Shown piece after piece: positions 2,880-15,181 of a stretch of DNA of 64,000 nt. The translations under genes and the position numbers were made by a program. The notes below the pieces were generated by a model that saw only the letters and a program-made list of their open reading frames with translations, was not told where the DNA came from and did no database searches. The stretch is taken from positions 186,001 to 250,000 of the forward strand of contig NZ_VKKH01000009.1 in NCBI RefSeq assembly GCF_007197995.1, written 5' to 3'. The stretch's first letter is position 1; the number at the start of each line of letters is the position of its first letter. The stretch comes from Aliiglaciecola sp. M165. Its GTDB lineage: Bacteria > Pseudomonadota > Gammaproteobacteria > Enterobacterales > Alteromonadaceae.

Positions 2880-3856
2880 GTAATTCTGTCTCTTTAATCA
2901 ATGTGGGAAAGTGCTGTTTAAACGATGATATTGTGCCTGTTTGAGTGTGGAGTTTAGTCAACACAAAACAACTGCAAATAAGTCGATGAAACTTAAGTAT
3001 CTAAAGGACAAAAAAGCTGTTAAAAAAGATATCCGATGTCCAATACATCATATTAAGTCAGACAGCGAAGCAAATAAATTCCTATTTTGCTTATCTGAGA
3101 GTAAATCAGCATAGTTAGCATCAAAAAAGCAAAAAGCCGCCAATTTTTGCAGTGATAGTATTTTGACACTTAATGTCAATAAAGTGCCGTTATTCAATCT
3201 GTTAATAACAATATAGTGAGAATTTTAATAAAGTACACACAGCAGCGGACAATCTCGGTAAGGATACTTACCCAAAAATATCACCACCCCTCATATAAAA
3301 CTTATACCATTGATTTTATTGGATTTTATTTTATTTTCCAAAAAACTCGTATAACATGTTGACAATATCCTTTTGCTTTGAGCTTATAAACTGAAACAGT
3401 TACTCACAGAGTTATCCACAGGAATCGTGGATAACTGTACTTAGCCCAATGACAGCGCCATATTACAGTTATGTGACGAAAAATTAGGTAAGTCGACACT
3501 AACCTTATGAGCTGTAACTTTATGTTTCAGTTTTATGAAACACTGATCACACGAACAGTGATCAACGATTTATTTATAACAATTTAATCTAGAAACCCAC
3601 TAAATTCGTTATTAAGCGAAGTGACCTTGTTGGCATTGATTTTGCCCAAATTTTGGGCAGCACTTTTTGCCTTTTTAGTAATCTGTAAGCGCTTTCCAAA
3701 AAGCCACAAAAACACTAAAAATTCGCGTGTAATCTCTCCTTTCAAAAAGACAAAAAATATGAATGACCAAAATGGCGATTTATTCAACAAATCATCGTCC
3801 TTCTGATGGATAAAGCATCAATTAACGCTTTTGTCTAAAAAACCTCAGATATTGTA
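2880..3856. other. Gene-free region, about 1 kb
   Basis: No convincing coding sequence. Two short overlapping reading frames on opposite strands (about 3584-3806) have no ribosome binding site and no recognisable product. The stretch is A+T rich and contains several inverted repeats: TTGACACTTAATGTCAA at 3163-3179, the DnaA-box pair at 3410-3436, and TGATCAC / GTGATCA around 3544-3562. It separates the MATE-uvrB pair from the divergently oriented tRNA and rsx genes and probably holds promoters for both. Confidence 0.6.
3410..3436. promoter_or_regulatory. Inverted pair of DnaA-box-like sites
   Basis: AGTTATCCAC (3410-3419) and GTGGATAACT (3427-3436) form a perfect ten-base inverted repeat with a seven-base spacer. 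The left arm contains TTATCCACA, an exact match to the TTATNCACA DnaA-box consensus; the right arm read on the other strand gives TTATCCACG, one mismatch. It could be a DnaA-binding site, or a hairpin that resembles one. No dnaA or other origin gene is near. Confidence 0.45.
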
Positions 3857-3885
3857 TTGACAGCGCGGCTGTTGCTCATTAATAT
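3857..3885 (+). promoter_or_regulatory. Sigma-70 promoter of the tRNA-Asn pair
   Basis: TTGACA at 3857-3862, a 17-base spacer, then TAATAT at 3880-3885. A G+C-rich stretch (CGCCTCCG) follows the -10 box, as in stringently controlled stable-RNA promoters. The first tRNA begins 21 bases after the -10 box. Confidence 0.8.
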
Positions 3886-3906
3886 TCGCCTCCGTTGAAA
3901 ATCTGG

Positions 3907-3983
3907 TCCCCCTTAGCTCAGTTGGTTAGAGCGACGGACTGTTAATCCGCAGGTCCCCCGTTCAAATCGGGGAGGGGGAGCCA
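3907..3983 (+). tRNA. tRNA-Asn (anticodon GTT), first copy
   Basis: A 77-base cloverleaf with encoded CCA. The acceptor stem TCCCCCT pairs with AGGGGGA, the D-arm reads GCTCAGTTGGTTAGAGC, the anticodon GTT is at 3941-3943 in loop CTGTTAA, and the T-arm is CCCCG TTCAAAT CGGGG. Identical to the second copy 21 bases downstream. Confidence 0.97.
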
Positions 3984-4004
3984 ACTTCAACAGTACAATT
4001 TGAT

Positions 4005-4081
4005 TCCCCCTTAGCTCAGTTGGTTAGAGCGACGGACTGTTAATCCGCAGGTCCCCCGTTCAAATCGGGGAGGGGGAGCCA
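4005..4081 (+). tRNA. tRNA-Asn (anticodon GTT), second copy
   Basis: Identical over all 77 bases, CCA included, to the copy at 3907-3983; the anticodon GTT is at 4039-4041. The 21-base spacer contains no promoter, so both are probably cut from one precursor. No clear rho-independent terminator was seen before the rsx promoter. Confidence 0.97.
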
Positions 4082-8711: not shown

Positions 8712-9385
8712 AAAAAAGTATACTTAACAATGGCATGATACTGACAGGCTTTGCATTGGCTACTACGGCCATGATTGCCCTAACCTTCACCGGCACCAAG
8801 GACAAAATTGAACAACAACTTGTGCAAAAACGCCTTTCTATACTTAATGCGATTATCCCTGCGGAAAGTTATGACAATGATATTCATCACGATTGCACAA
8901 TTGCTGTAAATGAGGAATTTTTGGGTACCGACCAGCCTCATGCGATTTATTTGGCTCGCAAGCAAAATCAACCTGTGGCGATGGCGATAGAAACAACAGC
9001 GCCAAATGGTTACAGTGGTAAAATTGAACTCATAGTTGGCGTTGACCTTGAGGGTAAAGTTAGTGGCGTAAGGGTATTGGATCACAAAGAAACCCCTGGC
9101 CTGGGCGACAAAATCGAACTGCGGGTGAGCGATTGGATAACGTCGTTCACTGGCAAAACCGTCACTGATAATAACCTTGATGATTGGCAAGTGAAAAAAG
9201 ACGGTGGACAGTTTGATCAGTTTACAGGCGCAACCATCACACCTAGAGCGGTTGTCAACGCGGTGAAAAATGCAGCCTTATTTGCGAAGCAGAACCAGTC
9301 AAAGTTATTCAATAGTGCGGTTCAGTGCGAACAAGGTGCAAGTGATGCTAAACCCGACACGTCTACTTCAAGTGATCAGTCATGA
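8708..9385 (+). CDS. rsxG: Electron transport complex subunit RsxG/RnfG
   Basis: Periplasmic-facing FMN subunit of Rsx, 225 residues. One amino-terminal membrane anchor (residues 8-28) is followed by an FMN-binding domain with [12 protein letters not shown] near residue 128 and [14 protein letters not shown] near residue 171. The second threonine of TGAT is the covalent FMN attachment site in characterised homologues. Overlaps rsxD and rsxE by four bases each (ATGA). Confidence 0.96.
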
Positions 9386-10080
9386 ATGAATACCAAGAGC
9401 TAAGTTGGCAAGGCCTGTGGAAAAACAACCCGGCAATTGTGCAATTGTTGGGTTTATGCCCGTTGTTGGCAGTGACCATGACAGTGGTCAATGGATTGGG
9501 CTTGGGATTAGCCACTACCCTAGTATTGATCGGATCTAACTGCACCGTTTCATTGGTGAGAAATATGGTGCCTAACGAAATCCGCATTCCAATTTTTGTC
9601 ATGGTCATCGCGGCATTTGTGACAGTCATCCAATTACTTATGAACGCATACACCTTTAGCCTTTATGAATCTTTAGGGATCTTCATTCCGCTGATAGTGA
9701 CAAACTGTGCGATCATCGGCAGAGCAGAAGCCTATGCATCGAAAAACCCAGTTAAGTATGCAGCGTTTGACGGCTTAATGATGGGCGCAGGTTTTACAGC
9801 AATATTGGTCATTCTCGGTGGCATGCGCGAACTTTTGGGCAGCGGAACGCTGTTTGCCGGCGCCAACTTATTGTTAGGCGACTGGGCGACTATCCTCAAA
9901 GTCACGGTTTTCGAGCCGGAAAATCCATTTTTATTAGCCATTTTGCCCCCCGGTGCCTTTTTAGGCATGGGCTTACTTATCGCGTTCAAAAACGCGTTAG
10001 ATCGACGAGTAGAATCTTGGGTGGTAACACCTAGTGAAGAAAAAACCGTGCAACGGGCCCGTGTAACCGCCGATAGCTAA
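9382..10080 (+). CDS. rsxE: Electron transport complex subunit RsxE/RnfE
   Basis: Membrane subunit homologous to RsxA and NqrD, 232 residues (231 in E. coli), six membrane segments. [10 protein letters not shown] near residue 22 and [20 protein letters not shown] near residue 106 hold the paired cysteine motifs that match those of RsxA. Last gene of the rsx set; nth follows after 23 bases, as in E. coli. Confidence 0.96.
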
Positions 10081-10103: not shown

Positions 10104-10739
10104 ATGAATAAAACCAAACGCCATGATATTCTGACACGGTTGCGCGATGACAACCCGCACCCGACAACAGAATTAAACTTTTCCTCACCATTTGAACTAC
10201 TAATAGCTGTGATCCTCTCTGCCCAGGCTACAGATGTCAGTGTCAACAAAGCCACCGACAAACTCTATCCTGTCGCCAACACCCCAGAATCAATTTTGGC
10301 GCTAGGCGTCGACTGCCTAAAGGAATACATTAAAACCATCGGCCTGTTTAATGCCAAGGCAGAAAATGTTATCAAAACCTGCCGCATCCTCGTTGAGCAA
10401 CACGGTTCAGTAGTGCCAGAAAACCGCGAAGCACTCGAAGCCCTGCCCGGTGTCGGTCGAAAAACTGCAAATGTGGTGCTCAATACCGCCTTTGGCTGGC
10501 CGACAATCGCCGTGGACACCCACATATTTCGCGTCTCCAATCGCACTAAATTAGCCATGGGAAAAAATGTTGATCAGGTGGAGCAGAAGCTGTTAAAAGT
10601 GGTTCCTGCCGAGTTTAAAGTCGATGTACACCACTGGCTGATTTTGCATGGGCGCTACACTTGCATTGCTCGCAAACCTCGTTGCGGCTCTTGTATTATT
10701 GAAGACTTGTGCGAGTTTAAAGAAAAGACTGAAGACTAA
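10104..10739 (+). CDS. nth: Endonuclease III, DNA glycosylase/AP lyase
   Basis: Removes oxidised pyrimidines in base excision repair; cytoplasmic. It has 211 residues, exactly the E. coli length. The helix-hairpin-helix LPGVGRKTANVV carries the catalytic lysine near residue 120, VDTHIFRVSNR the catalytic aspartate near 138, and C-x6-C-x2-C-x5-C (CIARKPRCGSCIIEDLC) is the 4Fe-4S site. GAGA precedes the ATG. The gene is intact, but its last 249 bases, from TTTGGCTGGC at 10491, recur in two broken copies at 12429 and 15047. Its 3-prime end may therefore have been renewed by incoming DNA. Confidence 0.97.
   Translation: MNKTKRHDILTRLRDDNPHPTTELNFSSPFELLIAVILSAQATDVSVNKATDKLYPVANTPESILALGVDCLKEYIKTIGLFNAKAENVIKTCRILVEQHGSVVPENREALEALPGVGRKTANVVLNTAFGWPTIAVDTHIFRVSNRTKLAMGKNVDQVEQKLLKVVPAEFKVDVHHWLILHGRYTCIARKPRCGSCIIEDLCEFKEKTED
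10491..10739 (+). repeat. Repeated 3-prime segment of nth, intact copy A
   Basis: This part of nth is the reference copy of a threefold direct repeat; B is at 12429 and C at 15047. All three begin with TTTGGCTGGCC. A and B differ at 10502, 10505 and 10508, are identical from 10509 to 10561, and with one mismatch at 10562 stay identical to 10591. About 18 further differences follow, nearly all at third codon positions. Confidence 0.9.
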
Positions 10740-10831
10740 ATGGGATCTGATTTAACTGCACGGAGCAATGCTGACATCAGAAAAATCGATAGCAACCGTC
10801 AATTTTATGTTGTTAAGTGAGTGCAAAGGGC

Positions 10832-11293
10832 TTACTTACAATTTCCTTGATAACCTGACACATGGGACTGGATGGCTTTCCATTTTCCGCTCATCTTGAT
10901 TAGCACATTTGTTGACACATAAGTAAAACAGTAGTCGCCTTTTTCATTCTTTCCCGATGCCCTACCTTGTCCAGCAACAATTGCCGTGTCGTTTTCAAAA
11001 ATATTCAATCGTTGGATATGGTATTCAAATTCATCGTGTGGCCAGGTGTAGGTTTTCAAAAAATTTAACTCTTGCGCTTTGAACGTGGTTTTTCCTTGTG
11101 GATCGACTATAACAAAATCTGGGTGGGTCAAATCGTCAAGTCCTGCTACATCTGAAGTTTTGTAGATAGCAGGCCAGATATGTTGTTTTAATTGTGTCAA
11201 ATATTCCACGTCATTCTCATAGGTTGTGCTGTCTGAGCTAGCATCAGCGCTTAACGAACTTAAAAAAAGGATTGAAAAAGTAAAAGCTTTCAT
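10832..11293 (-). CDS. Secreted NTF2/SnoaL-like protein
   Basis: About 153 residues from the preferred ATG at 11291-11293, which has GGAG eight bases upstream; a longer frame starts at 11323. Residues 1-18 form a signal peptide ending near SADA. The rest resembles the DUF4440/SnoaL NTF2-like fold: helical start (YLTQLKQHIWPAIYKTSDVAGLDDLTHPDFVIVDPQG) and a carboxy-terminal sheet with YVSTNVLIKMSGKWKAIQSHVS. Such domains bind small ligands or are enzymes; no specific function can be assigned. It lies on the opposite strand to nth, behind the LytTR gene in the same orientation, inside the first block between nth copies. Confidence 0.75.
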   Translation of the reverse strand: MKAFTFSILFLSSLSADASSDSTTYENDVEYLTQLKQHIWPAIYKTSDVAGLDDLTHPDFVIVDPQGKTTFKAQELNFLKTYTWPHDEFEYHIQRLNIFENDTAIVAGQGRASGKNEKGDYCFTYVSTNVLIKMSGKWKAIQSHVSGYQGNCK

Positions 11294-11387
11294 GACATGT
11301 CTCCAAGTTAGATTTGATAACAAGCTAACTGGAGAGGATCAGAAAACAAAGGTTTTTGTGACAAACCTATTGCTTGGCGTGATGAAT

Positions 11388-12281
11388 TTATTCGATGTGA
11401 GCCTGCTGCGTTATATCTAGTTTTCTCATTCTCACTAGGCGCTGTTTAAACCGCTTACCAACTGGCAGAAATGTACCGTCAATTAATGTAACACCAGGAC
11501 TTTGGCTACCCAATCCACTTACGCTGTCGATACATTTTACCTGGACGATATATTTTCTATGAATTTGAATAAAGCCCTGGTCTTCTAAAACGGAAAATAT
11601 CGATTTTAAGGTACTTCGATACAAATATTTTTCGCCAGCCAAGGACAGTTCTACGTAATTGCCAGCGCTGCTTATTAAAGAAATATCATTGATACCTATA
11701 ACTTGCTCTCGATTCCCTTTAGTGACCAATAGGGATTGTATTGGAGCACCTGAACTAGTTTTCTTTTGTCCATCTGGTTTAGTAATAGACAACTTTTTAT
11801 CTACGTTGGTATTGAATAAGGTGAAAGATAAAAGACTTGCATAGATCAGCAACGCCACTGGTATAAAATGAAAAGCCAGCTTCAATGTAGACTCAAGATC
11901 TAAATCCCAGATGAATGATTGCGCCGCCAATCCGAAGATTACAGTGAGGCAACCGATTACACTGTACCCTGTTAATCTTGCAGCAGTTCTTCCGAACAGG
12001 GTGGCTTTTATTATCCCTTGAGTAAGCACGGGGACAGCTAAAAACCAGAAAATAAGAACATCAAATGACCAGCGAAGCGATAAAAATAGTCCAAAATCAC
12101 TGTCTTGAACAACAGCGCTATGCATAACACAATAAAGTGTCAATACAATAAAGGCGCAAGCGGAAGTGCATAAATATTTGGCAAACATTCGCGCGCACGT
12201 CACTAAGCTGAGCGTGCTGATATGTTTTTCAGTCAATTCTTTTAGCGATTTACGATTATTCAGAATATAAGTTAACGTCAT
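11388..12281 (-). CDS. Membrane-anchored LytTR-domain transcription regulator
   Basis: Four hydrophobic segments in the amino-terminal half (around ACAFIVLTLYCVMH, FDVLIFWFLAVPVL, VIGCLTVIFGLAAQ and FHFIPVALLIYASLL) are followed by a LytTR DNA-binding domain over the last 110 residues, with INDISLISSAGNYVELSL and FIQIHRKYIV as typical elements. Membrane LytTR proteins usually control one neighbouring gene or operon. I prefer the ATG at 12279-12281, which has AGGA nine bases upstream; the open frame extends to an ATG at 12338. The only gene behind it in the same direction is the small secreted protein at 10832-11293, a possible target. Confidence 0.85.
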   Translation of the reverse strand: MTLTYILNNRKSLKELTEKHISTLSLVTCARMFAKYLCTSACAFIVLTLYCVMHSAVVQDSDFGLFLSLRWSFDVLIFWFLAVPVLTQGIIKATLFGRTAARLTGYSVIGCLTVIFGLAAQSFIWDLDLESTLKLAFHFIPVALLIYASLLSFTLFNTNVDKKLSITKPDGQKKTSSGAPIQSLLVTKGNREQVIGINDISLISSAGNYVELSLAGEKYLYRSTLKSIFSVLEDQGFIQIHRKYIVQVKCIDSVSGLGSQSPGVTLIDGTFLPVGKRFKQRLVRMRKLDITQQAHIE

Positions 12282-12428
12282 ACCGCATATTCCTGCTAGA
12301 CAATTGTTTCTTAGCCACGATTGTAATACATGAATCATGCATGTTTGAAGCTAATACCTTCAGACTTTCCGATAATGCCAAACCTAATAGCTCTTTTTCT
12401 CAATACGACGACTCTAGTATTCTTATCA

Positions 12429-12659
12429 TTTGGCTGGCCAACCATAGCCGTGGACACCCACATATTTCGCGTCTCCAATCGCACTAAATTAGCCATGGGC
12501 AAAAATGTTGATCAGGTGGAGCAGAAGCTATAAAAAGTTGTTCCGGCCGAGTTTAAAGTAGATGTACGCCATTGGTTAATTCTGCATGGGCGATACACTT
12601 GCATGGCGCGCAAGCCGCGCTGCGGCTCTTGTATTATTGAAGACTTGTGTGAGTTTTAG
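12429..12659 (+). pseudogene. 3-prime fragment of nth, copy B
   Basis: A 77-codon stretch that aligns without gaps to nth from 10491 (offset 1938). Frame and protein are almost fully kept (WPTIAVDTH, LAMGKNVDQVEQK, CGSCIIEDLCEF), but TTA is changed to TAA at 12531-12533 and the last residues end early at TAG 12657-12659. Differences from the intact gene are nearly all synonymous, so this fragment came from a working nth gene of a diverged lineage rather than from decay of a recent duplicate. The sequence before 12429 has no nth homology. A chance frame from 12330 runs into the fragment and is not regarded as a gene. Confidence 0.9.
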
Positions 12660-12891
12660 GATAAAACAGACTAGTTGAGATCAAAATACGGACGTTCGTT
12701 TTTAATTTCTCTAATCTCAGCTACTCAAACAAAGTAGCTGTAAAGCTAGCGACGTTTTACGTTTAACATGTTTCGACACATTCTGGTTTATCAGCTATAG
12801 ATCTTAAGATAAATAACTGAACAGACCTATTAGCAAACAAGATCCCTTCATCAGTTATATTTCAATAAATACTCTTAACTAAGGAAAAATC

Positions 12892-13767
12892 ATGGTTGTA
12901 GCCTTTTTTCAAAAACACAGAGTAATTTTGTTTCTAGTCGTATTTGCTTTACCAACCCGAGCAGAAACAGCTCTCCCTGACATCTGGGATGAGGCAATAG
13001 GTGGCGTAGATACGGTTTTTCTAGAAGAAATGACCGCAGGAGAAATTGCTCTTGCTTTACGAAGCGGTATGACGTCGGTAATCGTTGCAACAGGTGGAAT
13101 AGAGCAAAATGGACCAAATGTGGTAACGGGTAAACATAATTATGTGCTCAGAGCGACTACTGAGTCTATTGCTAGAAAGCACGGAAAAATGTTGATCTCA
13201 TCTATTGTTCAATTTGTTCCAGAAGGAAATATTACACCACCAAGTGGTCATATGAATTTCCCGGGTACAATCAGTATTAGTCAGAGTACCTTCATTGCAT
13301 TATTGTCTGATATCTGCAATAGCCTGCGTCAACATGGGTTCAAAAATATATTCTTAATAGGTGATAGCGGTGGCAATCAGGATGGAATGCAATTTGTAGC
13401 AGATTCTCTAAATTCAAGCTGGTGGAGTGAAACTGAACATGTGTTTTACATTCCTGAATATTACGCTGAAGATATCTGGAGCTATGATTACTTGAAAAAG
13501 TTGGGTTATGTGCAAAAGCCAGACATAAAAACTTCATTTAGAAATAACATACATACAGATTTGCACTATGAATCTATTATGTCAGTTATAAACCCAGATA
13601 CAGTGCGAGCCAGCTCGCGAATGAAAAACGGTAAGTTAGCCATTCATGGGGTAGAGTTCAAATCAATTGATGAGCTAGTAGAAGTAGGTAAATTATTGAC
13701 TGAATATCGAGCAAAAATAACTGTAAATGCAATGAAAAAGGCACTGAGTGGAACGCTAAAAAAATAA
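12892..13767 (+). CDS. Creatininase-family protein, exported, altered metal site
   Basis: 291 residues, with AAGGA six bases before the ATG. Residues 1-25 look like a signal peptide (hydrophobic VILFLVVFALP, cut after RAE or nearby). The remainder has the creatininase fold signature: VFLEEMTAGEIALALRSGMTSVIVATGGIEQNGPN near residue 43, SGHMNFPGTISIS near 122 and FLIGDSGGNQDG near 155. In characterised creatininases the first motif is EQHGPH with a following aspartate as metal ligand; here it is EQNGPN and GKHN. The metal site is therefore changed and the substrate unknown. It opens the second block between nth copies. Confidence 0.8.
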   Translation: MVVAFFQKHRVILFLVVFALPTRAETALPDIWDEAIGGVDTVFLEEMTAGEIALALRSGMTSVIVATGGIEQNGPNVVTGKHNYVLRATTESIARKHGKMLISSIVQFVPEGNITPPSGHMNFPGTISISQSTFIALLSDICNSLRQHGFKNIFLIGDSGGNQDGMQFVADSLNSSWWSETEHVFYIPEYYAEDIWSYDYLKKLGYVQKPDIKTSFRNNIHTDLHYESIMSVINPDTVRASSRMKNGKLAIHGVEFKSIDELVEVGKLLTEYRAKITVNAMKKALSGTLKK

Positions 13768-13877
13768 TTTATAAAAGTAACCTAAAAACAGCTATGACAG
13801 TAAAAAGCGGCTAACGATCGTTCAATGTCGTAAGCGACTGTTGATTTTCAATATGTTTTGCGGTGAGCCCATGTTGA

Positions 13878-14309
13878 TTATGTAATTGTGAAGCTTGCAG
13901 CCAGATTCCAAGCGACAAATATGAACATGAAGATCAATATCGCACTGCCAAATAAAAATATTCTAAATCTCATCGGAACAAAATTGCTACCAACATGGGC
14001 ATAAGCGTGAGCATATCGGCTCACTGCATACAAACAGGCCAGAACCATAGCAACCATGTCGACGGCATTGATCAAATAGATTACCAAGCAGAGAATATAA
14101 AACAAAACAGGGGTTTCAAATTGATTGGCGATATTGTTAGAAACTTTAACTACATCCTCAGGCCAAACCCTATTGTCCAACGAAGCCTTTTTGCGATCAA
14201 CTTCACCAGCTTTAACCGCTTTGGTCTTTCTCATACCAAGAATAATAAACAATGTTAGGGTTAGGAAAATCTGAGCCAATACTGGCCAAAAAATATAGTT
14301 TGGATGCAT
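13878..14309 (-). CDS. MAPEG family membrane protein
   Basis: About 143 residues with four hydrophobic segments. It matches the MAPEG family (eicosanoid/glutathione-metabolism type membrane proteins; bacterial members are mostly uncharacterised). Typical features are the polar stretch with VKVSNNIANQFETPVLFY near the second helix and ACLYAVSRYAHAYAHVGSN before the fourth. The preferred start is ATG at 14307-14309 with AAAGGG upstream; the frame extends eight codons further. It is divergent from the TetR-type gene and shares its operator region, so it is the likely regulated target. Confidence 0.85.
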   Translation of the reverse strand: MHPNYIFWPVLAQIFLTLTLFIILGMRKTKAVKAGEVDRKKASLDNRVWPEDVVKVSNNIANQFETPVLFYILCLVIYLINAVDMVAMVLACLYAVSRYAHAYAHVGSNFVPMRFRIFLFGSAILIFMFIFVAWNLAASFTIT

Positions 14310-14366
14310 GGAATACCCTTTAAAAATTATCATTAAACTTGGTTAGAATAATGAGGGATGCTAAAA

Positions 14367-14406
14367 TTGACAGTGTCAATATAGTGAATTAAATAGACGG
14401 TGTCAA
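14367..14406. promoter_or_regulatory. Two palindromic operators between MAPEG and tetR-type genes
   Basis: TTGACAGTGTCAA (14367-14379) is a perfect inverted repeat around a central base. TAGACGGTGTCAA (14394-14406) is a second, less perfect copy starting 27 bases later. TTGACA at 14367 with TAAATA at 14390-14395 (16-17 base spacer) also reads as a promoter toward the TetR gene, so a repressor bound here would shut its own promoter. This is the usual TetR autoregulation pattern; the binding itself is inferred. Confidence 0.6.
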
Positions 14407-14407
14407 T

Positions 14408-15025
14408 TTGAAGACGAATCTGAAACGTACAGCAGGCCAAAAACACGGAGACTTAAGGTCTGAGTTACTTCGCGAAGGATTAGAATTGCTTGATACGCAA
14501 GGAATAGAAGCGGTTACCATTCGTGCAATAGCGCGAAATGCAGGTGTAGCTCATTCGGCGCCTGCCAATCATTTCCCATCTAGACGGGCAATGCTAACAG
14601 CCATCGCCGCAATGATTTTTGCCGATTTAGCGGATCAAACCATAGAATCAGTAGCCGCAATAAAAAATAACCCAAGACAAGCTATTCAGGCGTTTGCAGA
14701 TACCTGCTTCAGATTTGCTTTTCGCACACCTAATCGTTATCAATTGCTTTGGCAACGCCAATTGATCGATCAAGATAATCCTGCTGTTGCGAAAGAAATG
14801 GATCGTATCTACTCAGCACTGCTTGCATCACTGCAACAAGAGAATATATGCCGTCGTGTTGATATTGATACTGATGCGATTGCTATCTGGTCAATGATTC
14901 ACGGCTACATAAGCATGAGATTAGACGGAAATCTTGTTGCCGCTGAAGATACAACAACTAGCCTGCCAAGACATAAAGCTATACTGTTGTCACTTATTGA
15001 CGGCATTTATCATAATCAAGATTAA
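14408..15025 (+). CDS. TetR family transcriptional regulator
   Basis: 205 residues. The amino-terminal TetR helix-turn-helix spans about residues 17-63 (LRSELLREGLELLDTQGIEAV, TIRAIARNAGVAHSAPANHFPSR), followed by an all-helical ligand/dimer domain with a TetR_C-like W-x-M-I-H-G-Y segment near residue 160. The longest frame starts with TTG at 14408, only 12 bases after the putative -10 box and just behind the second operator, so the message may be nearly leaderless; no Shine-Dalgarno sequence is seen. The next in-frame ATG would cut into the DNA-binding domain. Probable repressor of the divergent MAPEG gene and of itself. Confidence 0.88.
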   Translation: MKTNLKRTAGQKHGDLRSELLREGLELLDTQGIEAVTIRAIARNAGVAHSAPANHFPSRRAMLTAIAAMIFADLADQTIESVAAIKNNPRQAIQAFADTCFRFAFRTPNRYQLLWQRQLIDQDNPAVAKEMDRIYSALLASLQQENICRRVDIDTDAIAIWSMIHGYISMRLDGNLVAAEDTTTSLPRHKAILLSLIDGIYHNQD

Positions 15026-15046
15026 CCCCTGTCCATTTTCTAACGT

Positions 15047-15181
15047 TTTGGCTGGCCAACCATAGCCGTGGACACCCACATATTTCGCATTTCAAATCAC
15101 TCTAAACTGGCAATAGGTAAAACGATTAAAAGTCGCACCGGCAGAAGTTAAAATTGGTGTGAGTTTAACGGCAAGACTTAG
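15047..15181 (+). pseudogene. Decayed 3-prime fragment of nth, copy C
   Basis: Begins at the same base of nth as copies A and B (TTTGGCTGGCC). Its first 42 bases are identical to copy B and differ from A at three third positions. Beyond that it reads NHSKLAIGK in place of NRTKLAMGK, then has a deletion, then remnants of VVPAEFK (as VAPAEVK) and of the gene end. The most decayed of the three copies and the farthest from the intact gene. Confidence 0.85.

Follow-up and report, generated by a model that had tools for sequence, protein, structure and literature searches.

The endonuclease III gene nth of Aliiglaciecola sp. M165 (genome size, 4.61 Mb) is followed by two displaced copies of its own 3' end, each preceded by unrelated DNA. 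We consider it somewhat probable that the locus comprises two members of a mobile gene-cassette family that uses nucleotide (nt) 388 of nth as its attachment site, with insertion started by a recombinase acting in trans and completed by homology. The locus lies in a stretch of 64,000 nt, hereafter the window, to which coordinates refer; genomes and loci are labeled with G- and L-numbers, M165 being G000.

An earlier sequence-only reading of the window had noted that the 3' end of nth recurs at 12429 and 15047, on the same strand, from the same base, and with no homology before it. This was confirmed: the copies of the last 249 bases (10491, 12429, and 15047) all begin at TTTGGCTGGCC, which is nt 388 of nth, and a search of the whole M165 genome returned three matches only, here called tags A, B, and C. 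Tag A (10491 to 10739, plus strand; core TTTGGCTGGCC at 10491 to 10501) runs from nt 388 to the stop codon of the intact nth gene (10104 to 10739, plus strand; HhH-GPD and EndIII_4Fe-2S in Pfam) and forms the left end of cassette 1, so that the 3' part of this nth would be the tag of the newest cassette. The cassette 1 cargo, between tags A and B (10740 to 12428), encodes a DUF4440/SnoaL-like protein (10832 to 11323) and a LytTR-domain regulator (11388 to 12338), both on the minus strand and assigned by Pfam. It closes with the right end CTCTAGTATTCTTATCA (12412 to 12428, plus strand), a degenerate match to the consensus ATCTACYTTMATTATCT with 2 mismatches to the junction pattern described below. 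Tag B (12429 to 12677, plus strand), a displaced nth 3' end and the left end of cassette 2, is 89% identical to tag A, ungapped, over the part found by BLAST (12429 to 12670). Between tags B and C, the cassette 2 cargo (12678 to 15046) encodes, again according to Pfam, a creatininase-family protein (12892 to 13767, plus strand), a MAPEG-family protein (13878 to 14333, minus strand), and a TetR-family regulator (14408 to 15025, plus strand); at its right-end position (15030 to 15046, plus strand), the motif is barely recognizable by eye. Tag C (15047 to 15181, plus strand), the oldest displaced end, is 83% identical over its BLAST part (15047 to 15122) and continues by eye, with deletions, to about 15181. 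The copies had been said to decay with distance, which stands for the intact tag A and for the deletions in tag C; tag B has two in-frame stops inside its match rather than the one claimed.

Judging from junctions across relatives, a unit is composed of the last ~249 bp of nth (the tag), a cargo of mostly one to three open reading frames (ORFs), and a 17-bp end, C', of consensus ATCTACYTTMATTATCT. In 69 distinct junctions, C' directly precedes nt 388 of the displaced copies, with high information at positions −17 to −1 and scarcely any conservation farther upstream; the junction consensus is TTATCT followed, across the boundary, by TTYGGC. These junctions were selected for motif similarity, and controls therefore matter. 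With up to 6 mismatches, the junction pattern was found 71 times on the nth strand, never in its reversed form, and 8 times on the other strand, where 7 matches fall within the long-type nth sequences discussed below and 1 (G017) is unexplained; at 7 mismatches, the reversed pattern gave 4 matches. A second end type, TTTATCAACNGCGATANTGCCGTA, was detected at 14 places at the loosest cutoff, versus 2 in reversed sequence; by eye, 9 of the 14 adjoin nth tags. A class I end (≤5 mismatches) was present in 80 of 130 segments, whose cargo spans 738 to 8,535 bp (median, 2,724 bp). After deduplication, 76 cassettes with 168 ORFs of at least 100 amino acids (aa) were retained; 30 cassettes hold one ORF and one holds none, and 62 ORFs run along the nth direction and 106 opposite to it. 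The Pfam scan was run on 137 of these ORFs, the remaining 31 having a homolog in the set, and gave the best 25 of 44, 45, 28, and 25 families, so that rare families may be hidden. Among the families listed are regulators (LysR, AraC, and OmpR type), dehydrogenases, esterases, hydrolases, beta-lactamase-family proteins, sulfatases, and a phosphoethanolamine-transferase-type domain, along with others. When an initial 100 cargo ORFs were grouped by protein similarity, the largest group comprised four, and a padloc scan of 38 cargo ORFs found nothing.

Two close relatives, G096 and G128, capture the movement of such units. G096 equals G128 plus 7,617 bp (three cassettes) placed at nt 388 of nth, at the nth-proximal end of the array; from nt 388 onward, 11,877 bp of G128 match G096 from its third displaced copy, with 99.5% identity. 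Thus, the nth 3' end of G128 and the 11.9 kb downstream of it are found displaced in G096. The two nth genes show 2 differences in nt 1 to 387, none in 388 to 398, and 40 in 399 to 633. In the one pair showing it, addition takes place next to nth, with the gene kept whole and its 3' half replaceable. This agrees with what had been proposed from the window, namely, that nth is an insertion hot spot at which the gene stays whole while the old end is pushed outward, and that successive insertions leave the oldest farthest right: the newer units are those nearer nth.

Whole units also recur between genera and families at different positions. The window's cassette 1 with its tag has its counterpart in the second unit of the G002 array (1.8 kb at 68.7% DNA identity; 74% and 55% identity for the two proteins). 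G005 and G008 have their first cassette in common and differ in the second, that of G008 matching one in G003. In both members of the pairs G000/G002, G104/G323, and G199/G241, the shared unit starts at nt 388; in G025/G182, it starts within 3 nt of this position. G117 and G323, which belong to different families, are 88.6% identical over 7,785 bp versus 70.4% over 358 bp of upstream flank. The expectation that the junction would start at a constant base between strains is borne out across genera and families, although some worn copies start later. In relatives without an intervening cassette, nth is followed by gloA; since a displaced copy in G166 leads directly into gloA, as nth does in G018, we take nth-gloA to be the empty arrangement.

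The arrays are widespread. Two or more matches to the C-terminal part of nth were present in 81 genomes in a sample of 246 from the family; at least one of these, G126, has a divergent nth homolog, and the 15 kb examined there showed no remnant. When each genome's own nth was compared with its locus, copies started at nt 386 to 388 in 10 of 37 loci with nth, and eight further loci had partial, later-starting, or weaker copies. A strict junction pattern matched 20 times in 14 of 295 genomes of the order, all in three families and each time with an nth 3' end following; the reversed pattern matched 0 times. The copies at nt 386 to 388 in relatives, together with 20 versus 0 junction matches, indicate that the nth repeat pattern is not due to chance. 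The junction is common to named loci of Cognaticolwellia, Psychrosphaera, Neiella, and Alteromonas and also occurs in genomes of two further GTDB families of the order. At least one displaced copy accompanies 63 of 89 loci with an intact nth; these loci were chosen mainly for having copies, and a few were counted twice. The longest array, in G096, has eight displaced tags, worn ones included.

Where within the tag does the exchange occur? In G096, the third displaced copy is foreign at nt 388 to 432 and matches G128 nth thereafter, with a single difference up to nt 633. The second copy shows the converse: it equals G128 nth at nt 388 to 446 and is foreign from nt 447. Both switch points fall within one 14-bp interval, nt 433 to 446, and the simplest reading is a single reciprocal crossover 45 to 58 bp inside the tag. 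A crossover within the 11-bp core was dropped as a candidate on these grounds. Later exchanges in G096 are more mixed: its intact nth differs from nt 399, and the first copy is a mosaic. We also compared each nth with its first displaced copy. A displaced copy was present in 60 loci; requiring a window-length nth and a recognizable junction narrowed these to 42, of which 37 were kept, five being too divergent or too short; gaps were allowed because indels could bias an ungapped version. At least 50 nt preceded the third difference in 8 of the 37 genomes counting from nt 388 and in 1 of 37 counting from the other end, with 2 of 1,332 each way in the between-genome control. Shuffling of partners reached the observed mean tract in 0 of 5,000 trials from nt 388 and in 1,326 of 5,000 from the other end. 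The left-anchored tracts suggest that exchange starts at the junction, and the mapped crossover suggests that it ends within homology.

A further hint of a recombination site comes from nth itself. In some alleles, nth encodes 9 additional residues after F-G-W, and the inserted stretch, TAAAAGATAATGAAGGTAGATAC, reads as the cassette end in reverse complement. The inverted C' matched at 17 to 19 of 19 positions in the 10 long alleles scored of 14 (the other four were missed by the search expression), a level reached by 0 to 1 of 20,000 shuffles. Placed to the left, the cassette end forms, with the long-allele insert on the right, two inverted arms around GGCTGGCT; inverted arms around a core are the usual plan of a tyrosine-recombinase core site. 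As an inverted copy of the end motif appears as in-frame codons, C' looks like one arm of a recombination site, and this arm may have been left in nth by a cassette and then become coding.

In the mechanism we propose, a site-specific recombinase provided in trans, probably of the tyrosine type, would act on a cassette circle, in which C' is joined to the tag, at the nth core TTTGGCTGGC. The binding arms would be C' and the matching arm across the core, which in long nth alleles would survive as the in-frame coding insertion. Exchange would begin at nt 388 and move a variable distance into the homologous tag, and host enzymes would finish it. Such a mechanism would jointly explain the long tag, the sharp boundary at nt 388, the conserved C', and the left-anchored tracts. 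More tentatively, since we hold it to be somewhat less probable than not, the arrays may constitute a distinct cassette system parallel to the integron. In such a system, a trans recombinase would start at a coding site in nth, branch migration through the ~250-bp tag would finish, the back half of the gene would be continually exchanged across Alteromonadales, and the arm would have become part of the protein in some lineages.

Several observations weigh against a recombinase-started exchange. No recombinase adjoins nth in the lists, and none of those tested tracks the arrays. The sole mappable crossover lies inside the tag (nt 433 to 446), as plain homologous recombination would also give. 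The polarity rests on a minority of genomes, the median left tract being 20 nt versus 17 nt between genomes, and carriers show only a modest drop in congruence between the 5' and 3' halves of nth (rho of 0.26 versus 0.37 for short alleles). The rarer end type TTTATCAACNGCGATANTGCCGTA misfits a single arm sequence. Of the unscored long alleles, two come within 6 mismatches of the inverted junction (G032 with 4 and G007 with 6); G027 and G033 give no match at that limit. Finally, C' is matched only partly on the short-allele side and forms no clean inverted repeat with it.

Homologous recombination alone is a serious rival, if an unlikely one in our estimate. Here, RecA would join circles or linear DNA through the ~246-bp tag, and C' would be an ancient founder relic. 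Cassettes without a recombinase, the reciprocal switch in G096/G128, and the patchwork identity between the nth copies of G005/G008 all suit this explanation. Yet the 17 bp of C' are common to cassettes of unrelated cargo, with practically no similarity preceding them, a pattern that descent would hardly maintain without function, and RecA should favor no side of the tag, whereas the tracts are anchored at nt 388.

A mechanism started by a recombinase calls for a source of the enzyme. We built a tyrosine-recombinase profile from 19 local sequences and ran it as a six-frame search against 102 loci (1.73 Mb) and 80 named loci (1.47 Mb), partly from the same genomes. One clear tyrosine recombinase emerged in the 102 loci, ~12 kb beyond the last nth copy of G166, and none in the 80 named loci. 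It was rejected as part of the array, being located beyond the gloA gene that directly follows the nth copy. The same profile found no tyrosine recombinase among the 168 cargo ORFs of the 76 units, the best score (8.9 bits; E = 0.007) belonging to an amidohydrolase by Pfam. A PF00589 search of 26 and 16 genomes, which seems lossy, since some genomes lack XerC- and XerD-like scores, showed none near nth among the matches listed, compared by eye. Other recombinase types were judged solely from the listed Pfam families of the cargo.

Recombinases encoded elsewhere were considered as drivers. An orphan tyrosine recombinase of ~300 aa in G104 and G096 (L211) was rejected because its distribution does not follow the arrays: this type occurs in 16 other genomes of the 246 (L247 to L263), in several genera and with 78 to 86% identity to the G104 protein, including genera without arrays in the set, and the search gave no match in G061, G065, and G070 and only weak ones in G000 and G227. 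Recombinase groups resembling those of strand-biased circularizing elements (SEs) or GInts occur elsewhere in some genomes and are not linked to nth. Separately, L279, L280, L281, and L287 hold two or three adjacent large tyrosine-recombinase-like genes, similar to SE/GInt or related trios. In the DNA beside the recombinase genes scanned, the best C'-like site scored 11.2 out of a maximum of 28.4, a level also reached by shuffled sequence.

That a known system acts in trans (the integron integrase IntI, host XerC/XerD, or IntA/IntB of SEs) is improbable in our view. IntI scored above the cutoff in 180 of 246 family genomes (for example, L208 in G000 and L212 in G104), and it is commoner in genomes with at least two nth 3' matches (68 of 81 versus 112 of 165 others; Fisher's P = 0.009, uncorrected for ancestry); the 81-genome tally was made by hand, and genomes below the cutoff number 66 or 67 by two counts. 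However, 13 of the 81 lack IntI above the cutoff, including G023 with its textbook cassette end, and the IntI genes listed sit elsewhere in the genomes, none beside nth arrays. Likewise, the integron-like consensus GTTRRRY does not occur at the junction. The dif-like site of G000, ATGCGCATAATGTATATTATGTTAAAT, is by eye unlike both C' and the junction, and, as noted above, the recombinase genes scanned have no conspicuous C'-like site next to them. In favor of SEs, PMC9345347 and PMC10214605 describe ends of 13- to 19-bp imperfect inverted repeats with a 6-bp spacer and an element, SE-6283, that lies in bcp and carries a bcp homolog.

The sequence-only reading had envisaged an ordinary integrase-bearing element at nth. 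None was found at nth in the loci searched; the units are small cassettes, and the mapped crossover lies inside the tag rather than at the junction. Decayed integrative and conjugative elements (ICEs), integrative and mobilizable elements (IMEs), or prophages, having lost integrase and transfer genes after insertion at nth, seem to us slightly more improbable still than a known trans-acting system. Targeting of a gene 3' end with restoration of the gene is normal for such elements, and the window tags decay with distance from nth, both of which count for this view. Against it, the three units present in G096 and absent in its close relative G128 already lack a recombinase, cassettes with a good end are small (median cargo of ~2.7 kb in 80 segments), and no integrase-bearing element lies at nth in the stretches of the 102 and 80 loci. 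Simple tandem duplication of the 3' end of nth, followed by divergence, would give copies in direct order on one strand, as seen, but we regard it as virtually excluded: unrelated cargo separates the copies, a common C' end precedes the displaced ones, entire units have matches in other genomes, and G096/G128 contradicts it.

Set beside known systems, the features of nth units place them nearest cis-mobilizable elements (CIMEs) in makeup and nearest integron cassettes in behavior. The CIME model describes tandem accretion at ICE attachment sites. Like CIMEs, nth units are bounded by what would be attachment sites, lack recombinase genes, and stack in tandem at one gene; they differ in their small size, interchangeable cargo, and ~249-bp tag, and no integrase-bearing ICE or IME lies at nth in the loci searched (one genome per species). 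Integron cassettes are small nonautonomous units added at a fixed end by an integrase in trans. The nth units resemble them in unrelated cargo, fixed-end addition, distant hosts, and a recombinase apparently in trans. In contrast to integrons, the arrays have neither an adjacent intI nor an attC-type GTTRRRY junction, the docking site is inside a housekeeping gene that each unit repairs, and the cargo often has its own regulator and lies in both orientations. Phages e14 and 21 insert well inside icd and carry a long replacement 3' end, as nth units do, but they have their own integrase. With ICEs, IMEs, and prophages in general, nth units share fixed-site insertion that restores the target gene and not the integrase, and the dif-like site expected at the junction of a Xer-dependent element (IMEX) was not seen by eye. 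SEs, with their imperfect inverted-repeat ends around a short spacer and the bcp homolog of SE-6283, may be similar in plan; they carry intA-tfp-intB-srap, have a median length of 15.7 kb, and are reported in 17% of Alteromonadales replicons (PMC9345347 and PMC10214605), whereas nth units are shorter and have no recognizable recombinase and hence no such gene set. The term CIME is also used in PMC9345347; a word search of the main text of both articles found no mention of nth. The sequence-only reading knew of no element family that targets nth, and in the open-license PubMed Central literature, supplements aside, no description of nth as an attachment site appeared among the matches listed. 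The recombination step itself could well be new.

The locus represents a cassette-collecting site outside integrons, with up to eight displaced tags and common to marine bacterial families, which, with no integrase to mark it, can easily be overlooked. Half of a conserved repair enzyme is exchanged there, and any nth-based phylogeny is affected. The paired genomes, the two end types, and the left-anchored tracts make the recombination step testable.

Candidate vehicles were sought among viruses and plasmids. Viral contigs gave no exact match to the junction pattern; the arm pattern matched five of them, all without nth. Within the order, the arm pattern had 16 matches in 11 of 394 genomes versus 2 for the control, and of six such loci examined, four were nth linked and two (L226 and L235) were not. 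A phage contig ending in an nth 3' fragment (L278/L309) was rejected as a vehicle because it is probably a chimeric assembly: the other relatives retrieved lack the fragment, including one with an identical terminase. The phage collection yielded 14 records (best, 70% identity) and the plasmid collection 192, with several chromosome-sized replicons among the best 20 of the 192. Plasmid pSbal01 of Shewanella baltica OS155 (L307) carries a chromosome-like rsx-nth-gloA-msrPQ block.

The nth gene itself is sometimes replaced or broken. A divergent homolog (~41% identity, without FGWPTIAVDTH) takes its place between rnfE and gloA in G009 (L303) and G026 (L304), sits between two parts of a broken nth in G258 (L300), and lies upstream of nth in G161 (L295), G180 (L299), and G198 (L306); the docking site may have been removed in this way. 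G186 (L302) has a well-kept nth 3' copy at 3785 to 4033 of the oriented locus and no nth in the 19.5 kb read, its best nth-like match being a 41%-identity homolog elsewhere in the genome. In the window, rnfE/rsxE (9382 to 10080, plus strand), a conserved gene that also precedes nth in relatives, lies 5' of nth, and two tandem tRNA-Asn (GTT) genes are found at 3907 to 3983 and 4005 to 4081.

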